Below the pieces are notes generated by a model. It made no database searches, was not told the DNA's origin, and saw only the letters and a program-made list of their open reading frames with translations. From Candidatus Bealeia paramacronuclearis (GTDB taxonomy: Bacteria; Pseudomonadota; Alphaproteobacteria; UBA9655): DNA of 64,000 nucleotides. How positions within the stretch are numbered: position 1 is the first letter of the stretch; every line of letters starts with the position of its first letter. Both the position numbers and the translations under genes were made by a program. Of this stretch, positions 13,577-37,970 are shown piece after piece. The stretch lies in the NCBI RefSeq assembly GCF_035607555.1, contig NZ_JAVHWZ010000005.1:1-64000 (forward strand), written 5' to 3'.

Positions 13577-13640
13577 TCCTATTTAAACAGAATCAAGAGT
13601 CCCGCAAAGATCAGGAGCGCCGTTACCACATCACTGAATA
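13577..13640 (-). pseudogene. fragment encoding a membrane segment
   Basis: A minus-strand frame ends in VVTALLIFAGLLILFK-stop, a clean transmembrane helix, directly at the edge of the inverted copy that begins at 13635. It is probably the tail of a membrane protein cut by the rearrangement. Confidence 0.25.
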
Positions 13641-15250
13641 TCACGTGTCTTAAAGCTGCGTTTTACATCTCTCATTTCGCGCTTTTTTAAGATCAAAGAT
13701 TCCGTGCAGTCAACACCTTCCGTCTCACGAAACATATCATTCCTTTTTGCATGACACAGAATAAAGCTTACGCGTTTGTAACCGAAAACTCGATAAAGAT
13801 TCGATTACAATCAAACCTTTATTTTTTATGTGTTTATGACTATTTTTGTTTTGTAACCGATGTCTTATTTTTTACGGTTACAATTTTTGAGAAATATTTA
13901 TAAAAGGGCTTTGAAGGATGTTTTATGAATTGTAACCGTTGTAACCGTATATATTATAATATTATATGGAAAATTTTTATTTTTACACGGTCACTCATCA
14001 AGTTTTTTAATATTTTTTCTTTTCTATAACTCTTATCTCTCGTCACGGTTACAACGGTTACAGATGCAAAAGCAGCCCTCAACACAGCAGAAAAGCTGAA
14101 AAAAATGTAACCGAGACGATCCGATCCTGGCAGTTACAAAAACAAAAACAGTCATCTACATAAAAAATAAGATTTGGCTGTAATCGAATCTTTGTCAGGT
14201 TTTTCAGTTACAAAAATCTGTTAAAACCAAAAAAAGCATACAATCTCGTGTTGCAAGGGTTTTTGTTTTATAACCGTTCGTTTTGAAGTGCTTACAACTT
14301 TATATTAGGATTAATCTTGTAGCTTCGCGTGAAATTTAAACCAAACTTTTCATTCACTTGTGTCGTATAACGATCTTTAAAGGGAGAAATCAGGATTTCT
14401 TTCTTTATGAAACGAAAGTGCCATTTTGTCGGCTCCTTTCAGCACTTCATCGTCCATCACATCCGGTAAAAATACAGTAGTATGTTCTCTTTCCGTTTTT
14501 TTCTTTAATCGAATCGGCACGCTTTGAAATCGGACGTGAGGTAAAAGATGTGTCTTTAAATGCTTCTGCTTCAAAACGATCCGATTCTTGATAAATGGAG
14601 ATGTCACAGGTCTTTTCTCCACTTTTGGTAATTCATGGGGCAGGGTGCCTCCACGCGGTCTTCAATCCAGCTTTCAAGAGAGATCCCATCATCTCAAAGA
14701 GAGCACTTCCAGAGGCATTCCATGGCAAAATACCAGATCGATACAGTACTCGCCAATCGACATAAAAGTTCTCGCCCACACTGAATCTGCCCATCCGAGG
14801 TCTCGGTGACTTTCAAAGGGCTTCAAGATGCCTCTCTTTCCAAAAACGGATGTCTCATGAATCTTCATCTCAGTCTCTTCATGATCGGCTGTTGTCAGAT
14901 GATGCAAAGCGCTTCCAGACATACGCCATAATGACGGTGGACAGCCTTTAGATGCAACACAAACTGATCCGGCGTTCAAACTCATGCGTATTAAAAGCAC
15001 CTCACATCCAGCATCGCCTCTGCTCAATACACCTGACAGACTGTCCGGCGGTCTTTTCTTTTTTGACGTTCCTTAAATTGGTCTCAAACGGAATCTCACC
15101 TCCACTTAAAGACAGTTCTAAAACATGGCCATTATTTTCCGTTTTTAGCAGTTTGTTAGCTCTGTTTTGGTTTCTCCATTAGACAACATATAGGCCATGT
15201 TAACTGCGCATCCATACCAATAACTCATCAATCAAGAACGATTGCATCAA
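13635..15250 (-). pseudogene. eroded inverted copy of the primase-helicase 3' end and the origin region
   Basis: Read on the minus strand, this segment matches 22200-23884 almost throughout: the last ~334 codons of the 1404-residue gene, then the CGGTTAC-rich origin. It contains many 1-6 base indels and one stretch, around 14520-14560, with substituted sequence. The coding part is broken into short frames (14377-14622, 14689-15027). The CGGTTAC motifs and the outer arms of the origin (13770-13860, 14150-14220) are still recognisable but degraded. Confidence 0.85.
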
Positions 15251-16457: not shown

Positions 16458-16476
16458 TAAAAACTCCTAACAAAGA

Positions 16477-16731
16477 TTGGAGAGAGACTTGCAAATGCGA
16501 TCTGTTTTCACAAAAGTCGCTCGTGAGTCTATTGTGCAGGAGAATGTTCATAACATTACGTTCTCAATAGATGAGCCCAAAGGCGCGTCTTGTACAATCG
16601 CCGGTGAACTCACTCTCTCAGTCCTGTCTCACACCAGAAGGTTATGGGGAGCTATGGAGTTTTCTATCATGACGACGCCAAATGACAACGACTCAGTAGT
16701 TCAAGTCTTTCGTCATTTGAGAAAACTCTGA
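16477..16731 (+). pseudogene. fused relic of the two small genes preceding terminase
   Basis: An 84-codon frame reads MRSVFTKVARESIVQENVH..., then TTPNDNDS..VQVFRHLRKL. These are the 52-aa and 34-aa genes of the other copy (28746-28904 and 28636-28740) run together by small indels. Confidence 0.65.
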
Positions 16732-16793
16732 TTTGCAGCCAACTCCATGACTCTTGTAAACTCCTGCATAGAGTTTTAGGCAACAGCAAGGAT

Positions 16794-18341
16794 TTGATGC
16801 CATCCTCCACACTCAACGATGAGCTGGCGCCCGTTGTTTCAAGCCGATCTGATCATTTCGCTCCCTCATCATGCAAAATATCAAAGGCAGTTTTGGGATA
16901 CAGACCATCTGTACAAAAGACATTCCATAGTGCGGGGAAGAAGACCGCCCGTGAGCGTTTGTTTTGGCCAGCAACCATTGTAGGTAAAACCATGCGTGCG
17001 CTGTTGAGACGTCTATGCATTTGACTGGACACTATCCGGAGTGGTGGGAAGGATACCGTTTTGCGGAACATATTCAAGCTTGGGTTGTGGGTCCTTCGTG
17101 GGAGATCACAGGACAGCTTACAAAAGCAGTATTATCTGGGCGACACTCTCCGCAAGATCACGAGGTCTCGTGATCACTCACTGATCATCAAAGAAGACGG
17201 TATTGATGGAAATTCCCGAGGCCATCGCGCTCTCGTGCGTCATCGGACAGGCGGCATCTCAATCGTCTTTAAATCTTGATCAGGCACTGGACAAGTTTTC
17301 AGGCACTTTCGTAAGCATTGATTCATCTCGATGAAGAACTGGAGATTACAATCCTCAGTGTGCGATGCGAATTATGAGCACGCGCCTCAATACGGAATGA
17401 TGATGATTTCGATGACGCCGCACAAAAGTCATCAAGAGACTTTGGATCGGTTCCAGGTGGACAATGGCAAATCCGGTATAGTTTCCAAAAACAAGCGCTT
17501 TTATCTTCAAGCGGGCTGGGAGGATGCACTGCATCTGAAGGCCCAAGAAAAAGAAGATTACATCAGTGGATCCAGTGATACTCAGATTGAAATCCGTACC
17601 CAAGGCACGCCGCGCACAGGCAGCGGACAAGTCTTTCGAGAATCGGAATCTCTCTATACACAAAGCGCACCTCGGTATGATGTGATGTCAACCTCATCCA
17701 GCATCTTCATTCCACCATCTTGTCAAATTCTTTATGGCGTACAGATGGCGGAATCCTCTTCAGGCACCTGGGGCATGGTTCTTGTCATCAAAGATCCTCA
17801 AGGCGTCATCATAGTGGTGAGCGACTATAAAGGATCCGATCAGCGCTTTGATGACCATGCGCAACGGCTCAAATCTCAACTGCCGTCCAGCTATGTCGGT
17901 GCCATTCCAGGTTTTGTATCTGTGCCAGATCATGAGGAAGAACGGTATCGTCTTTTAGAACAGTTGAGTCAGAACCATCATTTACGACTACAAGGCATGG
18001 AACCTCTCGCATCACGCGAATACGTGATTGATCAAATCCGCAAGATGATGAAAGAGGGCACTTTTAAGATTGTGTCCTTTGAAAAAGATGAAAAGCGTTA
18101 TGGATGTGTGAATCTCATGAACGAGATCCGCAAGTATTCTCGAGATTTGAAAGGACGCATCATCGCGAGAAATGACCAATGCATCGAAGCTCTTTTGAGT
18201 GTGATGAACATTCTTTTGCATCATCAAAATATGGTGCAGACGGGAAGTGAATTGTGTGACGAGATGCCCCAATGGGACTACCGAAGATTCCGACACTTAA
18301 GAGACCGCCCCGCGTTGTATTTGCCACCTTATAAAGAGTGA
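16794..18341 (+). pseudogene. terminase large subunit, frameshifted copy that retains the nuclease half
   Basis: The first ~540 bases match the terminase start at 28587-27967 but carry many 1-6 base deletions that break the frame. From 17331 to 18341 a single 336-codon frame holds the C-terminal half. It begins MMMISMTPHKSHQETLDRF and includes LYGVQMAESSSGTWGMV and VVSDYKG (nuclease-like strands), then IIARNDQCIEALL. This is the only copy of the terminase C-terminus in the window. Terminases cleave and translocate DNA into proheads; the broken N-terminal ATPase makes this copy inactive. Confidence 0.8.
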
Positions 18342-18553: not shown

Positions 18554-19024
18554 GTGGTGAGAGAGGCACTTTTTAAGGGCAAGCTTATCATGGAAAAAAA
18601 TCATCATCAGAACATCGGCGCAAAACAGCATTTTCAAGAGAAAACTGCTGCGTTTTGTGCTGCGCATTTTTTAAGGAATTTCCAATGGACTGAGAAAACA
18701 CTTTGTGCAGAGCACAAAAGAAAGACTGAGAACAGCAATTTGCGTTTGAAGTTTGAGGATTGTGTGGAGGCTGCCTTCATTTCTGAAAACAGCCACACAG
18801 AATATTTGAAAATAATCAACACATCTACAGTCTCAAATGAGATGTGCGTCAAGGACAGCGACAGGAGGAGCGTTAAGCGCTTATATCCATATGCGCAAGA
18901 CAAAAGCAGCTTTGTGCAGTCCTTCTTGAGCGCAGTCCAAGACCTTGAAACAGATGTGTTGATCCAAAGGAACAAGGAGAACACATATGTCTCAAATTTC
19001 CAAAAGAATATCACAAGGCTATAG
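18554..19024 (+). CDS. hypothetical protein (156 aa or shorter)
   Basis: An open frame overlaps the start of the primase gene by 38 bases. A start at the ATG at 18590 (MEKNHHQNIGAK) is as likely as the upstream GTG at 18554. The product is polar, with several cysteines and no recognised motif. It shows no clear ribosome-binding site, so it could be a chance frame in the leader of the primase gene. Position suggests a small replication-module protein if real. Confidence 0.4.
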   Translation: MVREALFKGKLIMEKNHHQNIGAKQHFQEKTAAFCAAHFLRNFQWTEKTLCAEHKRKTENSNLRLKFEDCVEAAFISENSHTEYLKIINTSTVSNEMCVKDSDRRSVKRLYPYAQDKSSFVQSFLSAVQDLETDVLIQRNKENTYVSNFQKNITRL

Positions 19025-22000
19025 CTGTACGGAAGCAGAATTTTTAAAGATTATTTCCCACCTGAGAGGCACTCAACAAGGCGCGGGATCTCACGCGCAT
19101 GGCAACTGGAGCGTCCATTGTCCAGCACACGATGATCAAAAGCGCAGTGCGTCATTCAAATGGGAATCACCGGACAAACTCATTACCAAGTGCTTTGCGG
19201 GCTGTTCGCATCAGGCCATTATGGAAGCGCTTTTCGTGCAAGGTCTTGTCTCTGAAAGAATGTCCTCAAAAGACAAACCTTCCAAACCGGAGACCTCTTC
19301 ATTCCAGGTCACACCTGCGCGTCTCAAGGCGCTCTGGGAAGCATGTGAAGTGAACACGGCCAGATCACCGGTGGAAGAGTATCTCACGCGTCGCATTCCA
19401 AACCTTGCTTTTCTGCCATCATGTGAATCAGTTCGATATCATTCCGCACTCCTGCATCGAGAAAGCGGCAAGGAGTTACCTGCCATGGTGTCTCGCGTGC
19501 AGTTTCAAAAGAGCGATCGTATCGCTATTCATCGGACGTGGCTGGATCCTAACACACACCAAAAAGCAGACGTGTCCAATCCTAAAATGATGATGGGCAG
19601 TGTGAAGGGCGGGGCTGTTCACTTAAGCTCTCACTCCAATCCAGAGATTTTAGCGATCGGCGAAGGCATTGAGACTATGCTGAGCTTCCATCATATGACA
19701 GGCATTTCGAGCTGGGCAGCGCTTTCAGCGAGCAATCTGGGTGTATGTGAGCTGCCCGCTTTGCCGAATGCACGAGTTCTGGTTATTGCCATTGATAATG
19801 ACAAGAATGATGCCAGCCTCAAGAATGCAAGACGTCTTCAATCCAGAGCTTTGGCAGAAGGCAGGGTTGCTATTATCGTGAGACCGCCTCGTACTCTCAT
19901 AAGTGAGCATTCAAAAGAAGGCACCGAAGAAAGCATTCAGGAGACCGCCTTTCAATTCAAGGACTTCAATGACATCGTCGCTCAACAAGATTGGCAAAGC
20001 CGAACTCTTGCCCACTGGATTGAATCACAGGATGGAGACGACATTTCTTGGATAGTTGAAAAGACCAATGATGTTGAGCGCATTTGTGAAAAGTTCTTGG
20101 AGGAACACACATCTATTTCAACACACTCCTCAATTGAAAGTGCTCATCAATCGCTGAGCTTTGATGAAGCCTTTGATCACATTCAAAACACGCGGCACAA
20201 CATCTGTCTTCTGGGTGCAGGTGGTACTGGTAAAAGCACCTTGATCCAAAAACTGATGTCGGAAGGAGCTCTTTCCGGTCACACTGTACTCTTGGCACCG
20301 ACAGGTCTTGCGGCACTCAATATTGGGGGTGAGACCATCCATAAGTTTTTCCATTTCTCTCCCGATATTACGCCGCATACGGTACGTGTTTCGAAAGACA
20401 AAATCTACCGAGAGATTGACACCATCATCATTGATGAGGTTTCGATGCTCAGAGCCGATCTCCTCGATGTGATTGATATCTTTCTCAAGAAGAATGGCAA
20501 GAGCAACACCAAACCATTTGGTGGTGTTCGCATGATCTTGTGTGGGGATTTCTTCCAGCTTCCGCCTGTGCTCAAGGATATTGATGTGAAAGAGTTTCAG
20601 GAGGGCGGATACAAAACGACGTATGCCTTTGGCGCGCGTTCTTTTGAAGGTATCGAATGTATTGAGATGAATCATGTCTTTCGTCAGAAGGATGAAGCGT
20701 TTTTGAATCTTCTGAAAAAGATCCGATGTGCGGATATTGAGCCTTGTGATCTGGCGCCTTTAAATGCGCGCGTTCAGGATCCCGAGATCTTCCTGCAAGA
20801 AGGGCTTGCGCCGTTGCTCACAACCACCAACAAAAAAGCGGACTCTTTCAATCAGGAAAAACTGGAGAGCATTGACGCATCAGCCTTTGTTTATGAAGCC
20901 AAACTCAAAAACTGGGACGGTCATGCAGAGCCTGCGCCACAAAACCTCATCTTGAAGACAGGTGCGCTGGTGATGTTTCTCAACAACGATCCCGCAGGCA
21001 GATGGGTGAATGGGACGTTTGGTGTGGTGAGCGATCTTTCAAAGTCTTCTATCACCGTGAAGATTGGAGAAACTGAAGTTGATGTCGAAAGACATACGTG
21101 GGAACGCAAATCAACGCGACTTCATAAAAAAGAGATCCAGCGCAAGACAGAAGGTGAGTTTACTCAATATCCACTCCAGTTGGCATGGAGTATCACCATT
21201 CACAAAAGTCAGGGACAGACGTTTGATCGTGTAGTGATTGACTGGGACAAGGGAACCTTTGCCGATGGACAAGCCTATGTGGCTCTGAGCCGGTGTCGGA
21301 CGCTTGAAGGGATTTGTTTTCAGAGCTCGACATGGCCGGAGCATCTTTCTGTTTCAGAGGATGTGATCACATTTATGTCAGAAGCCAGAGAGACAGAGAC
21401 GATTCAAAGCCATTCCCTGTCCTTTGAAGGCACTATTCACGATCAGGATGAAACGCTCTACTCTCATCAGGAAGACGAGAGTGACGTTGTAGATGAGGAC
21501 AAACGCTTCAAAGTCAATGAGTACGGGATTTTTACTCGTGAATCAGGGAGTGCGCACTGGGTACAAATCCACGGGCATCCCTTACGGTTGCAATCGCGAT
21601 TCCAGATGGAGGATGGGAGCGGATGCGGAAAGATCTTTGAGTTTGAAAATAAACCGTTTGGAAAGAAGAACTTTGTGCTTTTTGATCGTATGATTAACAC
21701 AAGAGATTCCATTGAGATCCAAGAGGGACTCAGAGATCTGGGATACAAAACACCGCAAGATCCGGCGCAGATGAAGCTTTTGGTGCAGTTTTTAGATGCA
21801 TGGGACACGCCTCACGTACTGACGCTCTCTGAAAAGACAGGTTGGGTGGGCCAGAAAAGCTTTATTTTAAATGGAAGATCTTATGGTGAGGAGACGGAGA
21901 GCTATATTTTCAAACCACGATCTTTTGCGATACCGCAGTATGAGATGAAAGGCACTCTTGAGGGATGGAAACAAGAGGTGGGGGTCTATTGTGAAGGCAA

Positions 22001-23201
22001 CAGTCGTCTCATGCTCTATGTGATTGCCGCCCTCAGTGCCCCGTTTTTGAAGATCACCCATCGTCAAGGGTTTGGTGTGCACTTGTATGGCACATCGTCC
22101 GTTGGCAAGACAACAACATTGGAAGTGGCAAGCAGTGTGTTTGGCAGCAAGATCCACACATGGCGCACGACGGATAATGCGGCAGAAACGTTAGTCCTGC
22201 AATCGAATGATGCACCGTTCTTGATTGATGAGTTGGGACAGGCGGATGCGGGCAGTGCGTATAACATGGCCTATATGTTGTCTAATGGAGAAACCAAAAA
22301 CAGAGCTAACAAACTGGGCAAAAACGGAAATACGGCTGTGAGTTTTAGAACTGTCTTTTTAAGTGGAGGTGAGATTCCGTTTGAGACCAAATTTAAGGAA
22401 CGTCAAAAAGAAAAGACCGCCGGACAGTCTGTCAGGTGTATTGAGTTGAGAGCAGATGCTGGATGTGATAAAGGTGCTTTTAATACGGTGCATGAGTTTG
22501 GAACGCCGGATCAGTTTGTGTTGCATCTTAAAGAAGCCGTCCACCGTCATTATGGCGTGGCGTCTGAAGCGCTTTTGCATCATCTGACAACAGCCGATCA
22601 TGAAGAGATCGAGATGAAGATTCGCGAGGACATCCGTTTTTGGAAAGAGAGGCATCTTGAAGCCCTTTTGAAAGTCACCGAGACCTCGGATGGGCAGATC
22701 TTGCGTGTGGGCGAGAACTTTGCGTTTCTGGCGTCGATTGGCGAGTACTGTATCGATCTGGGTATTTTGCCATGGAATGCCGGAAGTGCCTTTGAGATGA
22801 TGGGATCTCTCTTTGAAAGCTGGATTGAAGACCGCGGAGGCACCCTGCCCCATGAATTACTGCAAGTGGAGAAAAGACTCAGACTTCTCATTTATCAAGA
22901 ATCGGATCGTTTTGAAGCAGAAGATGAAGACATGACCTTTACCTCACGTCCGATTTCAAAGCGTGCCGGGATTCGATTGAAGAAAAAATCTGAAGAGAAA
23001 ACATACTACTGTATTTTTACGGATGTGATGGACGATGAAGTGCTGAAAGGAGCCGACAAAAAAATGGCACTTTCGTTTCTCATAAAGAAAGAAATCCTGA
23101 TTTCTCCTTTAAAAGATCGTTATACGACACAAGTGAGAATGAAAAGCTTTGGTTTAAATTCTCACGCGGGAAGCTACAAGATTAATCCTAATATGTTGTA
23201 A
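18987..23201 (+). CDS. giant replication protein: Toprim primase + PIF1-like helicase + DUF927 ATPase fusion
   Basis: 1404 residues; AAGGAG eight bases before the ATG fixes the start. A zinc-finger primase head has C45, H48, C69 and C73. A Toprim domain follows with E226 (IGEGIETM) and D270/D272 (IAIDNDKND). Residues ~405-790 are a superfamily-1B helicase of PIF1/RecD2 type: Walker A GAGGTGKST (410-418), IIIDEVSM (480-487), GDFFQLPPV (520-528), the C-terminal TIHKSQGQTFDRVV and YVALSRCR. Residues ~840-1160 match the DUF927 type, with a second Walker A GTSSVGKTTT (1035-1044) and FLIDELGQA. The role would be priming and unwinding at the origin just downstream. Two separate motor domains and a primase in one chain is unusual. 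The 3' quarter is duplicated, eroded and inverted at 13635-15250. Confidence 0.9.
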   Translation: MSQISKRISQGYSCTEAEFLKIISHLRGTQQGAGSHAHGNWSVHCPAHDDQKRSASFKWESPDKLITKCFAGCSHQAIMEALFVQGLVSERMSSKDKPSKPETSSFQVTPARLKALWEACEVNTARSPVEEYLTRRIPNLAFLPSCESVRYHSALLHRESGKELPAMVSRVQFQKSDRIAIHRTWLDPNTHQKADVSNPKMMMGSVKGGAVHLSSHSNPEILAIGEGIETMLSFHHMTGISSWAALSASNLGVCELPALPNARVLVIAIDNDKNDASLKNARRLQSRALAEGRVAIIVRPPRTLISEHSKEGTEESIQETAFQFKDFNDIVAQQDWQSRTLAHWIESQDGDDISWIVEKTNDVERICEKFLEEHTSISTHSSIESAHQSLSFDEAFDHIQNTRHNICLLGAGGTGKSTLIQKLMSEGALSGHTVLLAPTGLAALNIGGETIHKFFHFSPDITPHTVRVSKDKIYREIDTIIIDEVSMLRADLLDVIDIFLKKNGKSNTKPFGGVRMILCGDFFQLPPVLKDIDVKEFQEGGYKTTYAFGARSFEGIECIEMNHVFRQKDEAFLNLLKKIRCADIEPCDLAPLNARVQDPEIFLQEGLAPLLTTTNKKADSFNQEKLESIDASAFVYEAKLKNWDGHAEPAPQNLILKTGALVMFLNNDPAGRWVNGTFGVVSDLSKSSITVKIGETEVDVERHTWERKSTRLHKKEIQRKTEGEFTQYPLQLAWSITIHKSQGQTFDRVVIDWDKGTFADGQAYVALSRCRTLEGICFQSSTWPEHLSVSEDVITFMSEARETETIQSHSLSFEGTIHDQDETLYSHQEDESDVVDEDKRFKVNEYGIFTRESGSAHWVQIHGHPLRLQSRFQMEDGSGCGKIFEFENKPFGKKNFVLFDRMINTRDSIEIQEGLRDLGYKTPQDPAQMKLLVQFLDAWDTPHVLTLSEKTGWVGQKSFILNGRSYGEETESYIFKPRSFAIPQYEMKGTLEGWKQEVGVYCEGNSRLMLYVIAALSAPFLKITHRQGFGVHLYGTSSVGKTTTLEVASSVFGSKIHTWRTTDNAAETLVLQSNDAPFLIDELGQADAGSAYNMAYMLSNGETKNRANKLGKNGNTAVSFRTVFLSGGEIPFETKFKERQKEKTAGQSVRCIELRADAGCDKGAFNTVHEFGTPDQFVLHLKEAVHRHYGVASEALLHHLTTADHEEIEMKIREDIRFWKERHLEALLKVTETSDGQILRVGENFAFLASIGEYCIDLGILPWNAGSAFEMMGSLFESWIEDRGGTLPHELLQVEKRLRLLIYQESDRFEAEDEDMTFTSRPISKRAGIRLKKKSEEKTYYCIFTDVMDDEVLKGADKKMALSFLIKKEILISPLKDRYTTQVRMKSFGLNSHAGSYKINPNML

Positions 23202-23284
23202 GCACTTCAAAACGAACGGTTACAAAAACAAAACCCTTGCAACACGAGAGTTTGTAAGGGTTTTTTTATGGTTTTAACAGATTT

Positions 23285-23371
23285 TTGTAACCGAAAACTC
23301 GATAAAGATTCGATTACAGTCAAATCTTTATTTTTTATGTGTTTATGACTGTTTTTTGTTTTTTGTAACCG
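23285..23371 (+). repeat. left 87-bp arm of the origin inverted repeat
   Basis: Starts and ends with TTGTAACCG. It pairs with 23647-23733 at 85 of 87 positions by eye. Confidence 0.85.
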
Positions 23372-23646
23372 CTTGTAATCGGACGTCTCGGTTACATTTT
23401 TTTTCAGCTTTTCTGCTGTGTTGAGGGCTGTTTTTGCATCTGTAACCGTTGTAACCGTGATTTGAGAGATAAGAGTTATAGAAAAGAAAAAAATATTAAA
23501 AACTTGATGAGTGACCGTGTAAAAAATAAAAAAATTTTCCATATAATATTATAAATATATACGGTTACAACGGTTACAATTCATAAAACATCCTTCAAAG
23601 CCTTATAAATACTCAAAAAAATTGTAACCGTAAAAAAATAAGACAT

Positions 23647-23733
23647 CGGTTACAAAAAACAAAAAATAGTCATAAACACATAAAAAATAAAGGTTTGACT
23701 GTAATCGAATCTTTATCGAGTTTTCGGTTACAA
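23647..23733 (-). repeat. right 87-bp arm of the origin inverted repeat
   Basis: Reverse complement of the left arm except for two substitutions. Both arm ends are the CGGTTACAA motif. Confidence 0.85.
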
Positions 23734-23933
23734 AACGCGTAAGCTTTATTCTGTGTCATGCAAAAAGGAATGATATGTTTCGTGAGACGGAAGGTGTTTT
23801 CGACTGCACGGAATCTTTTGATCTTAAAAAAAAAGCAAGGAAATGAGAGGGATGTAAACGTGTTTTTAAGACACGTGATATTCAAAGGGATCTGATGGAG
23901 GGCGTCTTGGGAAAGTCAGAGTATATTTTCCAA

Positions 23934-24396: not shown

Positions 24397-25092
24397 ATGG
24401 CACCTACAAAAAAAGAGCCGACAAAGACAGTTCGCAAAACTCAAAAGGCGAAGACGACAACGCCTGCGCTCAAGACCAAGGGCGCGAAGATGCTCACACT
24501 GTCTCTTGAGAATCTCGCCTTTCTCAAAACCATCCAAGGACAATCTCTTTTTGTAGATACGCTTTTAGATCGCTGTCGCACACAAGAAACTTTATCAGGA
24601 TCTCAGCGCACAGCTGAACTTGTGGATCGGTATTACGCTCTGACAGGTGTTCTCCCTGAAAAGGCCTATCAGAAATTTCTGCAAAAACGCATTGCTCTTT
24701 TAGAGAAGAATCGGACGCAAATGAAATCCCCGTCTTTGGCCGGTAGTCATCTCTCGGGCTCCGCTTTTCTAAAGCTTGATCAGGCCTTAGAACACCTTCA
24801 AGCAGAGAACGCCACAAAAGACCTCAAACAGGCTGTCACCTATGGTGTGATGTTTCGGATGACGGGCTGCAATCAACAAACGATCCGCAATTGGTTCCAG
24901 GCGAGAAAACAAGATATTGCAGCTTATCACAAGAGTCTCGGCGTGGAGGATCCTGGGATTCATAATCGTCAGGTGGCCGTTGTGGAACGCGTGCGGCGTG
25001 CCCAAGCTTTACGCGAGAGCCGCACCTCCCAAGAAGATAACTCACAAGGCGAGACCGTATCATGTCAGAAACTTCCTTTGTCTCCCCTTTAA
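24397..25092 (+). CDS. hypothetical protein coupled to the telomere-resolvase-like gene
   Basis: 231 residues with an ideal AGGAGGT five bases before the ATG. The first 30 residues are Lys/Thr-rich and disordered (KKEPTKTVRKTQKAKTTT). The rest is helical. A segment near 150-175 (VTYGVMFRMTGCNQQTIRNWFQARKQ) resembles a helix-turn-helix, so DNA binding is plausible. Its last 31 bases overlap the next gene, showing translational coupling. It may be a partner or regulator of the recombinase. The family is not recognised. Confidence 0.65.
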   Translation: MAPTKKEPTKTVRKTQKAKTTTPALKTKGAKMLTLSLENLAFLKTIQGQSLFVDTLLDRCRTQETLSGSQRTAELVDRYYALTGVLPEKAYQKFLQKRIALLEKNRTQMKSPSLAGSHLSGSAFLKLDQALEHLQAENATKDLKQAVTYGVMFRMTGCNQQTIRNWFQARKQDIAAYHKSLGVEDPGIHNRQVAVVERVRRAQALRESRTSQEDNSQGETVSCQKLPLSPL

Positions 25093-25919
25093 GCTATTTA
25101 CCGCCCAATCAGTTTCAAGTGTTTGAGAGAGATCTTAGAGCTATCTCAACCTCTGAAGAGCAGATCTTGGCCCTGGTGCACAAGACCCAAGAGCGATTGC
25201 GCCGTGAATATCCTAATCTCAAGAGTCTCAGGCGTATTTTGACGCATTACCGCAACATTTGTCGCAAAGTGCTCTCAGGGGATCTCCTGAGAGGAGCACT
25301 GGGAGTTCTGAATCTCAAAGATCAGGAGATTGTGTTTTTAAACACGAATTATATAGAGACGGTGGCGCAAGAACACCGCAACTTGCGTCCTCTTCAGAAT
25401 TATCTGGAGATGATCAAACATGCCGAAGATCTGCTCATTACCCGTCGTCCTTTGGATTGGGTCTTGGGATTGTGTTTTTTAACAGGACGCAGAGCCGCTG
25501 AGATTGGATCGACCGCGTGTTTTGGCGTTGTGGACGCCGATCACGTTCGGTTTTCAGGTCAGCTGAAGACCAAGACGCGAGAATCTCGTCCTTATGTCAT
25601 TCCGGTTTTGACGCATTCAAAACGTATCACGGAGACCTTGGCGACTTTACGCAAAGAAAAGCCACGCTGGTTAGATGATCCTCGTTACTTTAAAGACAAC
25701 ACGTCCTCACCTTTATCTCAAAAGGTGAAAAAGCAGTTTGGGGAGTTCATTTTAAATCCCCGTGTGAAAGATCTTCGGGCAGCCTATGCGGAGGTGGCTT
25801 ATCACCGGTTTGGATCTGAGGAGATTGCAAAATCTCGTTTCTTTTCAGATATTTTGGGTCATGGAGAAAACGATATTGTCACAGGCCAATCTTATCTGGA
25901 CTTTTATCTGGCGTCTTGA
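25062..25919 (+). CDS. tyrosine-recombinase-fold protein resembling telomere resolvase (protelomerase)
   Basis: 285 residues. The catalytic order fits protelomerases better than XerC/XerD integrases. LTGRRAAEIGSTACFG supplies R143/R144. RFSGQLKTKTRESRPYVIPVL supplies the lysine in the SGQ.KTK block usual in TelN/TelK-type enzymes. KDLRAAYAEVAYHRF supplies R239 in place of the integrase HxLR box. ILGHGENDIVTGQSYLDFYL supplies H267 and the presumed nucleophile Y278. Protelomerases cut a palindromic site and rejoin the strands as covalently closed hairpins, maintaining linear plasmid prophages such as N15. The known TelN is about twice as long, so this would be a short form. An ordinary phage integrase is the alternative. 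Confidence 0.65.
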   Translation: MSETSFVSPLSYLPPNQFQVFERDLRAISTSEEQILALVHKTQERLRREYPNLKSLRRILTHYRNICRKVLSGDLLRGALGVLNLKDQEIVFLNTNYIETVAQEHRNLRPLQNYLEMIKHAEDLLITRRPLDWVLGLCFLTGRRAAEIGSTACFGVVDADHVRFSGQLKTKTRESRPYVIPVLTHSKRITETLATLRKEKPRWLDDPRYFKDNTSSPLSQKVKKQFGEFILNPRVKDLRAAYAEVAYHRFGSEEIAKSRFFSDILGHGENDIVTGQSYLDFYLAS

Positions 25920-26063: not shown

Positions 26064-26108
26064 ACCGCTCTTACAAACTTATCCAAACCTAACCATATTT
26101 TACTAAAG

Positions 26109-27305
26109 TTACGCATGGTGTTGTATTCCTGATTCAACGCAGGTAGTTTCACTTATTTGACGAGCAAATGAGCCAGAGCTTCCCACTCCACAGGCATAAG
26201 TTTCGGGCGAGCTGCCCGTACATAAACGTTGTAAATTAAGGGCTGCATTCACATCTCTGTCATGAGATTGGTTGCAATGTGGACACGTCCAATGTCTCTC
26301 CGACAACTTTAAATCCGCATAAACACATCCGCAGCTATGGCAGAGCTTGCTTGACGGAAAGAACCGATCAGCAACAAAAATTTGAGCATTATAGAGACCT
26401 GCCTTATATTCCAATTGACGCCTGAATTCATAAAAAGACTGATCTAAAATATGTCGAGCTAATTTTCTGTTCGCTGACATACCTTTGACATTTAGGTTTT
26501 CAATGCCAATTTCATGATGATTCAGGACAATATCGGTTGTTGCCTTATGGAGATAATCACGTCTGATATTAGCGATTCGGGCGTGAAGACGTGCCAGTTT
26601 TTGAGTATGCTTTTTAAAATTCATACTCTTTTTATCTTTACGAGATAGCTGTCGAGAAGATCGTTTTAACTTCTTCAGCAAAGCGGTATGTGCCTTTGCT
26701 CCCTCAACAACCATGCCATTGGATAAAGTTGCCAGTTTTGTAATACCCAAATCCACACCCACAATACCTTGGTTCTTGCGTACATGAGGCAGTTTGTCTA
26801 TTTCAACACTGATGGATGCAAACCATCGGTCTGCAACTCTTGAGATCGTCAAGGATTTTATTTGTCCTTGAAATCTCAAATTCTCTGTTATTTTGACCCA
26901 TCCCAAACAAGGAATTTGAATCTTTTTACCTGTCACACGAATGGCAGACTCTCCTTTTTGGGGCGGACCATTGTCCGCTCTAAAGCTATCCCTGATTCCT
27001 TTCTTTTTAAACTTGGGATATCCTCCCTGTTTGCGGAAAAAGCGGTTAAAAGCTGATCCTAAATTTTTGATGGCTTGTTGAGGGGCATTTTTAGTGACCT
27101 CTTGCATCCAAGGATATTCTTCCGCCTTACAAGCATTGAGAAGTTTACGCAGGCTTATTTCTGTAGGCTTCTCACCATTCTGGTATTGTTTCTTCCATTG
27201 ATCTAAAGCCCAATTATAAGCAAAGCGTGCAACACCGCAGGCTTTTCTAAAATAAGTCGCCTGCTTATTATTTGGCTTCAATTCTACTTTATGAACTAAC
27301 AGCAT
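26109..27305 (-). CDS. tnpB: TnpB, RNA-guided nuclease of IS607 (copy 1)
   Basis: 398 residues. The N-terminal RNA/DNA-binding part has ACGVARFAYNWALDQW and GYPKFKKKG. The split RuvC nuclease has aspartate in VGVDLGITKL, glutamate in IGIENLNVKGM, a four-cysteine zinc ribbon (CHSCG and CPHC) and aspartate in HDRDVNAALNL. TnpB proteins cut DNA under guidance of an RNA made from the element's right end. Here the right end is at 26064 and the guide would read into 26063 and lower coordinates. All catalytic residues are present. It overlaps tnpA by 17 bases. Confidence 0.93.
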   Translation of the reverse strand: MLLVHKVELKPNNKQATYFRKACGVARFAYNWALDQWKKQYQNGEKPTEISLRKLLNACKAEEYPWMQEVTKNAPQQAIKNLGSAFNRFFRKQGGYPKFKKKGIRDSFRADNGPPQKGESAIRVTGKKIQIPCLGWVKITENLRFQGQIKSLTISRVADRWFASISVEIDKLPHVRKNQGIVGVDLGITKLATLSNGMVVEGAKAHTALLKKLKRSSRQLSRKDKKSMNFKKHTQKLARLHARIANIRRDYLHKATTDIVLNHHEIGIENLNVKGMSANRKLARHILDQSFYEFRRQLEYKAGLYNAQIFVADRFFPSSKLCHSCGCVYADLKLSERHWTCPHCNQSHDRDVNAALNLQRLCTGSSPETYACGVGSSGSFARQISETTCVESGIQHHA

Positions 27306-27912
27306 CGTAGGCTTCTTTCAGACCTTCCAATAATTTCTTGTTCTTTTTACTTCTCGCACCATACAATCTGGCCGAAAAAACAGTGATAATTTCCAACACA
27401 TCTTTGGCGAGTTCCTCTTCAAAAGAGGGTTCTTTCCCTTGATTGATAATCACAACTTCTACCTGATTCATCTCACAAATGGAAAAGATTAATTCTGCTC
27501 CAAATCTTAACAGCCTGTCTTTATGGGTTAAAACCAATCGACCTGCTTCTCTGTCTAAAATGGCACTAATCAGGATCTTCAGACCCTTTTTGTTGTAATT
27601 CATACCACTGCCAAGATCCGCAATGGTCTCAAACTTCCAACCTTGAGCTGCACAATACATCTCAAGGACTTGTTTTTGTCTTTCCAAATCCTGCCGTTGA
27701 TCGTGACTGGAAACACGAGCATAGCAAAGCGTTTTTCTATCTATCTTTTCAGTGCGAACAAGATGAGGGCGCAAGGCAGATAAAGGATAACGTCTTTGTC
27801 CTCCCGCTGTTCTTTCGGGAACAAGGCGACTCTCTTTTTCCCATCGCCTTAATGTGCCATTTGACACTCCAAGAATACGACTGGCTTCTCTGATACTCAA
27901 TAACTTATCCAT
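27289..27912 (-). CDS. tnpA: IS607 serine recombinase TnpA (copy 1)
   Basis: 207 residues. A MerR-like helix-turn-helix (LSIREASRILGVSNGTLRRWEK) precedes a small serine-recombinase catalytic domain with the nucleophile in YARVSSHDQRQDLERQ and the arginine-rich helix in THKDRLLRFGAELI. It catalyses excision and insertion of the IS607 element at poorly specific sites. It is intact. Confidence 0.93.
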   Translation of the reverse strand: MDKLLSIREASRILGVSNGTLRRWEKESRLVPERTAGGQRRYPLSALRPHLVRTEKIDRKTLCYARVSSHDQRQDLERQKQVLEMYCAAQGWKFETIADLGSGMNYNKKGLKILISAILDREAGRLVLTHKDRLLRFGAELIFSICEMNQVEVVIINQGKEPSFEEELAKDVLEIITVFSARLYGARSKKNKKLLEGLKEAYDAVSS

Positions 27913-27966
27913 AATTGGATAACTATATACAAGTTTAGATAGGTTTTAAAGAGCAGTTATTAACCC

Positions 27967-28587
27967 GTATTGAGAGGCGCGTGTGCTCATAATTCGCATC
28001 GCACACTCCTCGAGGATTCTGTAATCTCCAGGTTCTTCATCGAGATGAATCACGTTTACGAAAGTGCCTGAAAACTTGTCCAGTGCCTGATCGTAAGATT
28101 TAAAGACGAGATTAGAGATGCCGCCTGAACGATGACGCACGAGAGCGGTGCTGATGGCCTCGGGAATTCCACTCAATACCGTCTTCTTGATGATCAGTGA
28201 GTGATCAATGAGACCCGTGATCTTGCGGAGAGTGTCGCCCAGATAATACTGCTTTTGTAAGCTGTCTCGTGTGATCTCCCGCGAAGGACCCACAACCCAA
28301 GCTTGAATAGGTTCCGCAAAACGGTATCCTTCCCACCATTCGGGATAGTGTCCAGTCAAATGCATAGACGTCTCAACAGCGCACGCATAGGTTTTACCTA
28401 CACGGTTGCCGGCCAAAAACAAACGCTCACGGGCGGTCTTCCCCGCACTATGGAATGTCTTTTGTACAGGATGTGGTCTGTATCCCAAAAACTGCCTTTG
28501 ATATTCTTGCGCGATGAGGGCGCGAAAATGATCAGGATCGGCTTGAAACAATCGCGCCAGCTCATCGTTGAGGTGTGGAGGATGCAT
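27967..28587 (-). pseudogene. terminase large subunit, N-terminal ATPase part cut by IS607
   Basis: About 207 codons in frame from the ATG at 28587, with AAGGAT upstream. Walker A GNRVGKTY is at residues 60-67, then PSREITRDSL, and a Walker B-like VIHLDEEPGD near 186. The frame then runs a few codons into IS607 (stop at 27946). The remainder of the gene does not follow the other side of either IS607 copy. The C-terminal half survives only in the eroded copy at 17331-18341. This copy has the intact N-terminal half that the other lacks. Confidence 0.85.
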
Positions 28588-28635
28588 ATCAAATCCTTGC
28601 TGTTGCCTAAAACTCTATGCAGGAGTTTACAAGAG

Positions 28636-28740
28636 TCATGGAGTTGGCTGCAAATCAGAGGCTTTCCTTAAATGTGACGAAAAGACTTGAACTATTTTTG
28701 AGTCGTTGTCATTTGGCGTCGTCATGGATAGAAAACTCAT
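28636..28740 (-). CDS. small protein (34 aa) upstream of terminase
   Basis: The ATG at 28740 follows the stop of the 52-aa gene by five bases, with GAGAG upstream. The product (MSFLSMTTPNDNDSK...) is also recognisable in the eroded second copy. That hints at a real gene but proves little, because the whole region is duplicated. No family is known. Confidence 0.4.
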   Translation of the reverse strand: MSFLSMTTPNDNDSKIVQVFSSHLRKASDLQPTP

Positions 28741-28745
28741 AGCTC

Positions 28746-28904
28746 TCATAACTTTCTGGTGTGAGACAGACTGGAGAGAGTGAGTTCACCGGTTGATTGT
28801 ACAAGACGCGCTCGCGGCTCATCTATTGAGAACGTAATGTTATGAACATTCTCTTGCACAATAGACTCACGAGTGATGCACTTTTGTGAAAAAACAGATC
28901 GCAT
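28746..28904 (-). CDS. small protein (52 aa) upstream of terminase
   Basis: The ATG at 28904 is preceded by GGAGAG nine bases away. The sequence begins MRSVFSQKCITRESIVQENVH, then polar strands, ending LSHTRKL. A corrupted copy lies at 16497-16660. Family unknown. Confidence 0.45.
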   Translation of the reverse strand: MRSVFSQKCITRESIVQENVHNITFSIDEPRARLVQSTGELTLSSLSHTRKL

Positions 28905-28977
28905 TTGCAAGTCTCTCCAATCTTTGCTTTGTGAGTGTTTTTAGAAAATGCATCGCTCGTGCAGAAAATAGGCCGAG

Positions 28978-31263: not shown

Positions 31264-33195
31264 TCAATCTGCCCAGAAGCTGCGAAGTATTCTAGCGCGT
31301 TTCGGGTGTCTTAGCTTTCGTAATGCCTTCGCTTCGATCTGACGTATACGTTCCCGTGTCACACCAAAGATAGCACCCACCTCTTCAAGAGTATAACTGG
31401 TGTCCATCCCAATCCCAAACCGCATCCGCATGATTCTTTCCTCTCGCGGGTTGAGAACTTCAAATATCCGTGTTGTGGCCTCTTTTAAGTTTGTCGCAAT
31501 CACGCCTTCCAAAGGATCTTTGGCATTGGTGTCTTCAATGATATCTCGCAAATATCCTTCTTCTCCTGATCCAATGGGCGTATCGAGACTGACAGGCCCT
31601 TTTTCAATTGCCAAAATTTCCTGAATATGTGAGAGAGATCCTTCAATTTTTTGAGCCAGCTCCTCAGGCGTTGGATTGCGACCCAGCTCTTGAAACAGGG
31701 AATGTGAGACTTTCCTGATCTGAGAAATCTTGCTTTCCACATGAACAGGAATCCGGATCGTTCGCACTTTGTCCTGAATCGCACGAGTTATGTGCTGTCG
31801 AATCCACCATGTTCCATAAGTCGAGAACTTATGCCCCCGGCGATAGTCAAACTTATCGACAGCCTTCATCAAACCAAGGTTTCCCTCTTGGATCAGATCT
31901 AAAAAGGACATCCCGCGATTCATATATTTTTTGACAATCGAGATCACCAACCGCAGGTTGCCTTCGATCATTGCTTTTTTCGCGCGCATCATGTCGCGTT
32001 CGCCTTTTTGCACTCTTCTCACGATGTGAGTGAATTGGGCAAGAGGTATCCTCAACTCGATTTCAAGAGATTCCAGCGCTTGGCGGAGAGAGACCACTTT
32101 TTCTCTCCGATCCTCAAGTGGCTTGTTCTCTGCGCTGGATGGTCCGTCAACAGGCTCAATGTGCAGGGAGTCACGCGGGTCCTCCTCCGCAGAGACAACA
32201 GGAGAAGCAGATATGGCGTCTCTACCTTCTGTCAGCGTGAGCAGCTGACCTTCAAGGTCCATCCGTCTGCGATTGAAGACATCTAGTTGATCTTTCAACT
32301 GCGCAATCCGATCTGACCTTAAATGAAGACTCTCACAGAGTCTGATCAGTTCGGCTTTGTGCGGTGTCTCCGGTATAGAAGACGGTGAATTGTTTTGAAA
32401 AGATCCTGGTTGATATGGATCGTGAAAGGCATTGTGATACGTTTCTTCAATCTTGCTCAAGATCTCCAGTGTCACAAATCCTAAAGACTGATGAAGGGTG
32501 CGATAGGGAAGTGTCGTCTCTTCAGTCTCCGTGTCCGTATCTGATGCCTCATCCTCATCACCAGCATCGGGAGCGGGTTCGGTGTCCTCAGGATTGAACT
32601 CATCCTCCTCCTCATCTTCAGATAACGGTTTAGGCCGCGCCGCCTCTACATCAATGAAGCTTTGAAGAAAGATTTTCTGATTTTTCAGTTCCTCACCCCA
32701 AGCGATAATTTGACGAATCGTCAAAGGCCACTCATAGAGCGCGTGTTCCATCATCTCCCGTCCTTGGATAATCTCTTGACTGAGTTCTATTTCTTGAGAT
32801 TGTGAGAGCAGACCCAAGCGACCCATCTCATTCAAGTAAAGACGCACGGGATCCTCCGCAGCAACCGCTCTTTTGCGATGAGATGTGTCCTCATCATCGG
32901 CTCTGTCAAAACCACTGCCATCTTCTCTGGGCTCTCTTTCCTCAACCTCAACGCCCATGTCAGAGAGTGCCACCAACACCTCCTCTAAGGGAACAGAAGG
33001 GGCGCGCCGGGAGACAATCTTGGCCACATCTCTCTCCTGAATGACACCACCCGTATCCGCGCGTCTGATTAATTTTTCCATCTCTGAAGACGACAACACT
33101 TGTGTCACAAGATCTATCGTCTCTTCGGCTTCTGAGCTCAGATCCGTCTCAGTTTGCGTGATTGTTTCGTCTTGAACATCGTGCCTGTTTGTCAT
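31264..33195 (-). CDS. full-length RpoD-like primary-type sigma factor on the mobile element
   Basis: 643 residues from the ATG at 33195, whose first base overlaps the TAA of the gene upstream. It has a sigma 1.1-like N-terminus, region 1.2 ([19 protein letters not shown]), a long acidic non-conserved insert, and region 2 at 409-486 ([50 protein letters not shown]). Region 3 and region 4 (580-643; [23 protein letters not shown]) follow. Promoter-contact residues of 2.4 (Q, T, R) and 4.2 (R, E, Q) match the housekeeping type, so ordinary -10/-35 promoters should be read. It differs from typical RpoD in several conserved places (GMSF, YGTWW, QDKVRT). Its place in a phage operon suggests host RNA polymerase takeover, or a capture of host rpoD. 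Confidence 0.93.
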
Positions 33196-33782
33196 TACTG
33201 CACACCTCCGCTGACCTGTACCTCTTCCAGCAATGGAATGAGGTTTTTGTATCCCCACCTCAGGTAATCAACTATCTCATCTGAGGAGATCATAAACCAG
33301 TCCACACGTCTGGAGCGGTTAATAGCATTTTCGATCTCTTGAAACGAAACCGCCTCCAAAACACGCTGCGGTTTCCAACCGTAAGCAAAACGGAGTAACG
33401 GCGTTTCGGTTTTGGCTTGAATCTCATAGAGCTGCTTGAAATACGAATGATTGTCTTTTGTCATCAGCTCCACCGTATCTTTAAAAACGCACTGATGAAT
33501 CTCGTGCTTTTGTCTCTCTGTCAATCCAAAAAGCTTTCGGTCATTTTCAAAAAAGACTTTGGCAAGCGGTGTGTCTTGATGCGCAAAGGCTTCAAGATCG
33601 ACCTCTCGATTGTCTGCACTGACGCACGCGCAAATCAAGTCCCAGTTGAGTTGATTGATGTCTTCCAAGACTTCCTCAATCTTTTGTGTTGCAATCACAT
33701 TCGCGCTATAGATCACTGTCATATCCTGGAGCCACTGAACTCCTTTTCTATCCTCGTAATCAGGAAAATAGTCTTGATAATC
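33195..33782 (-). pseudogene. C-terminal part of a gene split by an IS701-like insertion
   Basis: About 195 codons continuing the frame of 34866-35026. It includes YFPDYEDRKGVQWLQDM, a region of mixed helices, and ends [15 protein letters not shown], with TAA overlapping the sigma-factor ATG. Removing the element and one TAATC copy restores ...QYDYQDYFPDYED... in frame, giving ~248 residues in total. Function unknown. Its overlap with the sigma gene suggests an anti-sigma or co-regulator, but no motif supports that. Confidence 0.75.
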
Positions 33783-35928: not shown

Positions 35929-35982
35929 GGGTTAATAACTTCTCTTTAAAACCTATCTAAACTTGTATATAGTTATCCAATT

Positions 35983-36606
35983 ATGGATAAGTTATTGAGT
36001 ATCAGAGAAGCCAGTCGTATTCTTGGAGTGTCAAATGGCACATTAAGGCGATGGGAAAAAGAGAGTCGCCTTGTTCCCGAAAGAACAGCGGGAGGACAAA
36101 GACGTTATCCTTTATCTGCCTTGCGCCCTCATCTTGTTCGCACTGAAAAGATAGATAGAAAAACGCTTTGCTATGCTCGTGTTTCCAGTCACGATCAACG
36201 GCAGGATTTGGAAAGACAAAAACAAGTCCTTGAGATGTATTGTGCAGCTCAAGGTTGGAAGTTTGAGACCATTGCGGATCTTGGCAGTGGTATGAATTAC
36301 AACAAAAAGGGTCTGAAGATCCTGATTAGTGCCATTTTAGACAGAGAAGCAGGTCGATTGGTTTTAACCCATAAAGACAGGCTGTTAAGATTTGGAGCAG
36401 AATTAATCTTTTCCATTTGTGAGATGAATCAGGTAGAAGTTGTGATTATCAATCAAGGGAAAGAACCCTCTTTTGAAGAGGAACTCGCCAAAGATGTGTT
36501 GGAAATTATCACTGTTTTTTCGGCCAGATTGTATGGTGCGAGAAGTAAAAAGAACAAGAAATTATTGGAAGGTCTGAAAGAAGCCTACGATGCTGTTAGT
36601 TCATAA
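35983..36606 (+). CDS. tnpA: IS607 serine recombinase TnpA (copy 2)
   Basis: 207 residues identical to the copy-1 protein, with the MerR-type helix-turn-helix and the catalytic serine in ARVSSHDQ. Intact. Confidence 0.93.
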   Translation: MDKLLSIREASRILGVSNGTLRRWEKESRLVPERTAGGQRRYPLSALRPHLVRTEKIDRKTLCYARVSSHDQRQDLERQKQVLEMYCAAQGWKFETIADLGSGMNYNKKGLKILISAILDREAGRLVLTHKDRLLRFGAELIFSICEMNQVEVVIINQGKEPSFEEELAKDVLEIITVFSARLYGARSKKNKKLLEGLKEAYDAVSS

Positions 36607-37786
36607 AGTAGAATTGAAGCCAAATAATAAGCAGGCGACTTATTTTAGAAAAGCCTGCGGTGTTGCACGCTTTGCTTATAATTGGGCTTTAGATCAATGG
36701 AAGAAACAATACCAGAATGGTGAGAAGCCTACAGAAATAAGCCTGCGTAAACTTCTCAATGCTTGTAAGGCGGAAGAATATCCTTGGATGCAAGAGGTCA
36801 CTAAAAATGCCCCTCAACAAGCCATCAAAAATTTAGGATCAGCTTTTAACCGCTTTTTCCGCAAACAGGGAGGATATCCCAAGTTTAAAAAGAAAGGAAT
36901 CAGGGATAGCTTTAGAGCGGACAATGGTCCGCCCCAAAAAGGAGAGTCTGCCATTCGTGTGACAGGTAAAAAGATTCAAATTCCTTGTTTGGGATGGGTC
37001 AAAATAACAGAGAATTTGAGATTTCAAGGACAAATAAAATCCTTGACGATCTCAAGAGTTGCAGACCGATGGTTTGCATCCATCAGTGTTGAAATAGACA
37101 AACTGCCTCATGTACGCAAGAACCAAGGTATTGTGGGTGTGGATTTGGGTATTACAAAACTGGCAACTTTATCCAATGGCATGGTTGTTGAGGGAGCAAA
37201 GGCACATACCGCTTTGCTGAAGAAGTTAAAACGATCTTCTCGACAGCTATCTCGTAAAGATAAAAAGAGTATGAATTTTAAAAAGCATACTCAAAAACTG
37301 GCACGTCTTCACGCCCGAATCGCTAATATCAGACGTGATTATCTCCATAAGGCAACAACCGATATTGTCCTGAATCATCATGAAATTGGCATTGAAAACC
37401 TAAATGTCAAAGGTATGTCAGCGAACAGAAAATTAGCTCGACATATTTTAGATCAGTCTTTTTATGAATTCAGGCGTCAATTGGAATATAAGGCAGGTCT
37501 CTATAATGCTCAAATTTTTGTTGCTGATCGGTTCTTTCCGTCAAGCAAGCTCTGCCATAGCTGCGGATGTGTTTATGCGGATTTAAAGTTGTCGGAGAGA
37601 CATTGGACGTGTCCACATTGCAACCAATCTCATGACAGAGATGTGAATGCAGCCCTTAATTTACAACGTTTATGTACGGGCAGCTCGCCCGAAACTTATG
37701 CCTGTGGAGTGGGAAGCTCTGGCTCATTTGCTCGTCAAATAAGTGAAACTACCTGCGTTGAATCAGGAATACAACACCATGCGTAA
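36590..37786 (+). CDS. tnpB: TnpB, RNA-guided nuclease of IS607 (copy 2)
   Basis: 398 residues identical to the copy-1 protein, with all RuvC acids and the zinc ribbon. The right end and expected guide differ from copy 1 because the flank from 37832 onward (GTCGATGATACTGAAG) is different. It overlaps tnpA by 17 bases. Confidence 0.93.
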   Translation: MLLVHKVELKPNNKQATYFRKACGVARFAYNWALDQWKKQYQNGEKPTEISLRKLLNACKAEEYPWMQEVTKNAPQQAIKNLGSAFNRFFRKQGGYPKFKKKGIRDSFRADNGPPQKGESAIRVTGKKIQIPCLGWVKITENLRFQGQIKSLTISRVADRWFASISVEIDKLPHVRKNQGIVGVDLGITKLATLSNGMVVEGAKAHTALLKKLKRSSRQLSRKDKKSMNFKKHTQKLARLHARIANIRRDYLHKATTDIVLNHHEIGIENLNVKGMSANRKLARHILDQSFYEFRRQLEYKAGLYNAQIFVADRFFPSSKLCHSCGCVYADLKLSERHWTCPHCNQSHDRDVNAALNLQRLCTGSSPETYACGVGSSGSFARQISETTCVESGIQHHA

Positions 37787-37970
37787 CTTTAGTAAAATAT
37801 GGTTAGGTTTGGATAAGTTTGTAAGAGCGGTGTCGATGATACTGAAGCTGATGTCGGAAATCCGTAAGATTGCTCTTGTGTGTTTTGATCTGACACGGTC
37901 TGTCTCCTCGTGTTGTTTTCAACGGTTTCAAAAGTTTTGATTGTCTTCATCGCGATATCAAGTCACTTTT

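Follow-up and report, generated by a model that had tools for sequence, protein, structure and literature searches.

A predicted SaPI/SCC/PICI-type replication origin directly behind a fused initiator gene in Candidatus Bealeia paramacronuclearis

What does a dense, symmetrical cluster of GTAACCG repeats (iterons) do in the DNA of Candidatus Bealeia paramacronuclearis? The cluster occupies positions 23217-23733 of the stretch that we analysed (64,000 nucleotides of contig NZ_JAVHWZ010000005.1, here contig C5; the stretch is called the window below) and follows the gene of a 1404-aa fused replication protein. A sequence-only reading of this DNA had proposed an iteron origin beside an initiator or helicase gene. 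Our results support that proposal well and refine it: very probably, a phage-like or plasmid-like element starts its replication in this stretch, at an origin of the type found directly 3' of the initiator gene in Staphylococcus aureus pathogenicity islands (SaPI), staphylococcal cassette chromosomes (SCC) and phage-inducible chromosomal islands (PICI). We are confident of the kind of site, and its activity is predicted.

The stretch 23217-23731 holds 11 exact copies of GTAACCG or its complement CGGTTAC. This agrees with the earlier count and lies far beyond the shuffled expectation: none of 2000 mononucleotide shuffles of the 515 bp gave more than one copy, and the whole window has 19 copies where 2.39 are expected (100 shuffles). 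Relative to the midpoint between the inner pairs, the iterons lie at -289, -220, -142, -117, -65, -56, +56, +65, +117, +141 and +219. Ten of the eleven are mirror-paired to within 1 bp and in opposite orientation, even across intervening sequence that is not palindromic, and the outermost one (-289) is unpaired. The inner facing pairs and the A+T-rich core that had been described are both present, the core between the pairs measuring 104 bp with 82% A+T against 54% for the window. Two inverted arms complete the arrangement. They had been given as 87 bp, which is the same feature trimmed; in full, each is the reverse complement of the other along 89 bp apart from two mismatches (23325, 23351), and their inverted-repeat score of 81 compares with a maximum of 13 among 200 shuffled versions of the region. 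Each arm carries an imperfect 30-bp palindrome (the inverted partner of the one in arm A is at 23687-23716), a possible candidate site for a second protein. The pattern CGGTTACN{5,30}GTAACCG had zero matches in the genome.

The gene of the 1404-aa protein stops at 23201 and the first iteron begins 15 bp past the stop. The stretch is thus located directly 3' of an initiator helicase gene, with two iteron sets around an A+T-rich region, as is known from SaPI, SCC and PICI origins. In the extracts of the literature cited here, PICI origins have two iteron sets around an A+T-rich region 3' of the initiator, and pri-ori was tested for maintenance (PMC6092414); the C-terminal domain of SaPI Rep acts on iterons downstream of its own gene, and that of Cch2 binds repeats downstream of the gene, two hexamers being proposed (PMC7581432). 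DUF927 and VirE-family ATPases are described as predicted mobile-element helicases whose winged-helix domains may recognise origins (PMC5862659, also cited from an extract).

The 1404-aa protein is consistent with such a role. Pfam lists DUF7146 and Toprim_3 (the primase part), PIF1 and a C-terminal DUF927, and the protein's last 200 aa can be aligned with a profile of 15 DUF927 C-termini (E 1.4e-5). We modelled residues 850-1404 with 18 relatives, obtaining a predicted local distance difference test score (pLDDT) of 79 and a predicted template modelling score (pTM) of 0.70. The top Foldseek matches of this model are Cch of the SCCmec cassette (5dgk, E 3.9e-18) and SaPIbov1 Rep (8tch, 9.7e-17). 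VIA-align gives Z 28.5 over 452 residues for 5dgk and 28.6 over 426 for 8tch, the next match (MCM) reaching 15.4. The root-mean-square deviation of the model from 5dgk and 8tch is high (11), which we read as domains turned relative to each other in the model. As predicted, residues 850-1404 would have the Rep/Cch fold of an initiator. The single chain joins two helicase engines (PIF1 and DUF927) to a Toprim primase part; none of 594 matching phage records and none of 2803 plasmid records covers at least 80% of the entire fusion at a single locus.

The association of layout and gene recurs elsewhere, as a search with DNA patterns reveals. The first pattern (GTAACCGTTGTAACCG) matched in 49 viral contigs, 21 of which contain at least six GTAACC within 600 bp. 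ORFs (open reading frames) were examined at 17 of these 49 loci, and at 12 a neighbouring ORF has a primase or initiator-helicase domain (the five without are L016, L017, L041, L043 and L049). A stricter pattern, two facing pairs 80-110 bp apart, matched 36 viral contigs, compared with 2 for a control with each hexamer reversed, and a further 40 loci in genome contigs, by record title from Clostridia, Prevotella, Alphaproteobacteria, Chloroflexi and others. At these 76 loci we took the nearest ORF of at least 200 aa ending towards the pattern within 2 kb; 15 loci are without one. The other 61 ORFs match DUF927 (17), HTH_56 (14), VapE (12), DUF5906 (8) and Prim-Pol (4), with overlaps, and among 49 ORFs starting towards the pattern none of these five families is found in the best 25 of 51 families. 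BLAST puts 28 of the 61 into a single group, the largest, whose loci we call helicase-linked. The closest homologues of the window helicase in the pattern set, L165 and L163, both members of this group, belong to loci retrieved by the DNA pattern alone: L165 matches the C-terminal part of the window protein at 3.6e-83 (last 200 aa 7.5e-25) and L163 at 1.1e-46. A helicase scan gave no match, and the paired-iteron pattern is absent from the 16 other genomes of the family.

Among the matches of the facing GTAACC pattern are the Prevotella contigs L189, L191, L192, L197, L201, L205, L211, L212 and L222. Within single genomes (Prevotella sp. SUG549, P2-180) the pattern repeats at several sites, none followed by a helicase from the BLAST group, and there it looks like a dispersed repeat or a regulatory site of another kind.

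Beyond the inner pairs, whose spacing was part of the search, the outer iterons of the helicase-linked loci favour certain positions and orientations; these positions played no part in the pattern. At the 28 helicase-linked loci, a group picked after the families had been seen, 37 of 54 iterons 95-126 bp from the centre point outward and 43 of 50 at 126-165 bp point inward. The window fits this layout, with outward iterons at ±117 and inward ones at -142 and +141.

On these grounds we propose a mechanism. The Cch/Rep-type C-terminal part of the 1404-aa protein would recognise the GTAACCG iterons, a binding for which the co-occurrence of motif and helicase gives indirect support. The oppositely oriented iteron sets would place two hexamers head to head around the A+T-rich core, the core would melt, each helicase would go its own way, and priming would be done by the fused Toprim part. 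We infer that the origin fires bidirectionally after double-hexamer loading and is still active. The coordinates of the parts concerned and of neighbouring features are collected in Table 1.

Table 1 Features of the window discussed in the text (strand "." where none applies).
Feature	Coordinates	Strand	Basis or remark
Decayed copy, inverted, of origin plus 3' end of initiator gene	13635..15249	-	88% to 23884-22208
1404-aa fused replication protein, proposed iteron-binding initiator	18987..23201	+	Pfam and structure model
Proposed replication origin	23217..23733	.	Directly 3' of initiator gene
Outermost iteron, offset -289	23217..23223	-	No partner
Arm A, 89 bp	23283..23371	+	Iterons 23287-23293, 23365-23371; palindrome 23302-23331
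Iteron at -117	23389..23395	-	Outward-pointing
Left inner facing iteron pair (GTAACCGTTGTAACCG)	23442..23457	+	
A+T-rich core (82%)	23458..23561	.	Proposed melting site
Right inner facing iteron pair	23562..23577	-	
Iteron at +117	23624..23630	+	Outward-pointing
Arm B, 89 bp	23647..23735	-	Iterons 23647-23653, 23725-23731
231-aa protein	24397..25092	+	Homologues in three small linear plasmids of cyanobacteria, each with a telomere resolvase gene as well
285-aa telomere resolvase (ResT-TelK_cat)	25062..25919	+	PF16684 E 4.1e-30

Known systems resemble the window to different degrees. In SaPIs (Rep, 8tch) the origin likewise lies directly 3' of the initiator gene, with iteron sets and the same predicted fold (extract of PMC7581432); the comparison covered position, iteron sets and fold. 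What sets the window apart is an initiator fused with Toprim and PIF1 parts, a telomere resolvase gene close by and inverted arms of great length. SCCmec Cch and Cch2 share the Cch-fold initiator helicase and the repeats downstream of the gene, but the Cch2 iteron is AAGTG in three copies, and the extract cited describes no facing dyad of such size (PMC7581432). Gram-negative PICIs (EcCICFT073 and others) share the two iteron sets around an A+T-rich region 3' of the initiator (extract of PMC6092414), whereas the element around the window origin has terminase fragments and a telomere resolvase gene. An E. coli element (L014/L227) with a Toprim protein, an integrase and a P2-type capsid gene has clustered GTAACC and 9-bp-spaced pairs in both orientations; unlike in the window, its Toprim protein has no DUF927 match and the integrase gene stands between primase gene and origin. 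Its origin occurs in 59 of 5426 E. coli genomes. In E. coli C25 the satellite-like element with its dense GTAACC origin (L227, 7001-11331) would be a handy test system.

How far does the arrangement extend beyond this element? We advance tentatively, as a proposal with somewhat less than an even chance, that the facing GTAACC dyad is a cross-phylum origin code which loads two ring helicases head to head, its letters drifting while its geometry stays, and that the window pairs SaPI-type initiation with hairpin-end formation. The rule would be inward pairs at about ±45-65 bp, an outward iteron at about ±105-120 and inward ones at about ±125-150, common to initiators of different ATPase families (DUF927, VapE, DUF5906). 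If this is true, a DNA-only pattern locates SaPI/SCC/PICI-type origins and their initiators in unannotated contigs, and an architecture that in 2018 was called private to PICIs (PMC6092414, in the extract cited) extends to another sort of element. The fixed geometry would also offer a testable handle, in simple bacterial systems, on the way in which MCM-like helicases that load themselves come to sit on DNA as opposing hexamers. Among the matches listed by literature text searches, no printed report of the GTAACC layout appeared; figures lie outside a text search and may carry the motif.

For the reverse search, starting from the protein, we aligned the L165, window and L163 sequences; as query, this alignment returned 39 viral loci, L165 included. 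L165, already found by its DNA, was excluded, and of the 38 loci assessed we dropped 7 in which the gene runs off the contig and 3 with less than 150 bp of 3' flank. In L231 the helicase is similar over nearly its whole length, and the gene is immediately followed by 5 GTAACC, plus variants, spaced in 9-bp steps. At the corresponding place L232 has facing sets of iterons with different letters, likewise in 9-bp steps; L233, L234 and L236 have no GTAACC cluster in 600 bp.

Several of our results weigh against the proposed reading of the site as an origin served by the 1404-aa protein; the link from helicase to motif is weak. Only 2 of the 28 protein-found loci with a readable 3' flank have at least four GTAACC, and one of the two, L235, is the contig of L163. 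Of 30 alphaproteobacterial DUF927 loci (in 21 of 385 genomes), the window's own locus alone has a cluster, the flanks being short. The 48 loci outside the helicase-linked group show no bias near the centre (20 of 41 outward, 23 of 40 inward), and the inward and outward counts overstate the case, because the loci are kin and yet are counted as independent. HTH_56, frequent among the pattern-facing ORFs, is not listed by Pfam in the 1404-aa protein up to E 0.05. In hhalign comparisons the C-terminal profile of DUF927 does not match that of VapE-type proteins (E 0.12), nor does the window C-terminus match the VapE-type profile (0.58).

GTAACC as a mark of all DUF927 genes is ruled out by the flanks of most relatives, which have no clusters. 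Since the protein-found relatives mostly have no motif or have other iterons, GTAACC is one of several solutions, and what endures may be the geometry. We also rejected one C-terminal binding domain common to both families as the source of the shared motif, because the DUF927 and VapE-type C-termini do not align. As for the 48 other loci, which have an outward excess at 165-230 bp (38 of 50), their different orientation pattern suggests that many are probably another kind of repeat.

A variant compatible with this anatomy is that the site is a SaPI/PICI-type origin by descent which no longer fires, as part of a decayed prophage. We consider this possible, if rather doubtful. It would fit a terminase N-terminal fragment beside an insertion element (27946-28587) with a separate C-terminal fragment (17331-18341), several insertion elements around, and the presence of a second, decayed copy of the origin. 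The remaining 8 motif copies of the window (13778-14113), absent from the earlier description, sit in this copy, and its gene part is interrupted by stops. At the intact site, on the other hand, the 1404-aa and 285-aa frames are open, and the arms have no private changes, compared with 13 (2 + 11) in the arms of the decayed copy. The two copies have diverged to different degrees along their length, by 9.6% in the gene, 14% in arm A, 6% in the core, 2.4% in arm B and 0 in the inner pairs; either constraint or a conversion tract may lie behind this. Both origin copies share two differences between arm A and arm B; the arms were therefore distinct before the copies parted, and they have been preserved in the intact copy.

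The long arms, like the resolvase gene nearby, are an oddity of this one element. The arms had been called longer than iterons need, and this holds across the comparison, as the best inverted repeat near the dyad scores at most 30 in the 76 facing-pair loci against 81 in the window. We read them as an inverted duplication of a flank, with two extra iterons on each side.

Quite improbable is a different function, in which the iterons are operator or incompatibility sites for the 231-aa protein, serving control of the resolvase operon or partition, with no origin present. The resolvase operon does adjoin the dyad, and the 231-aa protein weakly matches a helix-turn-helix (HTH) model, below its cut-off. 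The motif, however, follows the helicase gene and does not stand at the start of an operon. A 231-aa homologue is present in all three small linear cyanobacterial plasmids fetched (L080, at 5e-10, L081 and L082), and none of them holds a GTAACC cluster; conversely, the helicase homologues with the motif have no detected 231-aa homologue in their loci, which are partial. Because each occurs without the other, iteron binding by the 231-aa protein seems less likely than binding by the helicase.

The least probable reading makes the dyad a target of the resolvase, that is, a replicated-telomere site, or a structure derived from a telomere. The sequence-only reading had raised a telomere-processing role from a resolvase encoded 1.3 kb away, and the gene is genuine, with an intact frame from 25062 and a clear PF16684 match. 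Its relatives, at about 30% identity, are in Vibrio phages and in cyanobacterial and alphaproteobacterial plasmids; among 190 genomes in the search for relatives, PF16684 was found in this genome only. Also in favour of a telomere, the whole of 23283-23735 can be aligned with its reverse complement at 76%, and Vibrio phage MAR has a 186-bp quasi-palindrome, which we take to be its telomere site, just upstream of its protelomerase gene. The axis speaks against it: of the 30 positions to either side of the dyad axis, 11 match where 9.7 are expected, as opposed to 28 of 30 at the MAR site. No even-centred position in contig C5 exceeds 20 of 30 axis matches, and 12.5-42 kb has no even palindrome with a net score of at least 9. 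GTAACC clusters are found in none of seven loci of resolvase relatives, MAR and pSTA7437.04 among the cluster-free systems; such telomere phages and linear hairpin plasmids have in common with the window the PF16684-type resolvase and, in some of them, ParA or a 231-aa homologue. The dyad layout, in turn, is common to loci that show no resolvase; among the motif loci searched, which are partial, none turned up a resolvase homologue. The viral contigs scanned have no relative of the resolvase or of the 231-aa protein and the genome contigs scanned none of the resolvase. With an axis that is not palindromic, the dyad as telomere target is rejected and the proposed telomere role finds no support. 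No palindromic telomere site was found in the contig.

Between 37.8 and 67.9 kb, contig C5 (73,871 bp) largely matches, at 97-99.5%, pBealeia1, a plasmid from a Paramecium biaurelia sample of Candidatus Bealeia paramacronuclearis (Holosporales), while the part bearing the origin has no match to the two Bealeia plasmid records beyond insertion elements. An insertion element is present in two inverted copies that are 99.9% identical (26064-27966 and 35929-37831); since similarity to pBealeia1 begins at 37832, a contig misjoin at these copies is possible. The ends of C5 are repeats shared with other contigs, or ordinary sequence, and no telomere is seen in them. We set aside the idea that C5 is a linear plasmid whose contig ends are telomeres: no inverted terminal match was seen, and the right end is a repeat that other contigs share.

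Pieces of a terminase large subunit occur twice, incomplete and in opposite orientations, at 16471-18341 and 27946-28926 (89.5%); the latter stops at an IS607-type insertion. A sigma factor gene at 31264-33258 was discarded as proof of a chromosomal site, as it is a second RpoD-like gene, 46% identical to the one on contig C1. Finally, pBealeia1 carries six annotated RebB R-body genes (L225, 2344-4635) and also has a Mu-like head gene.
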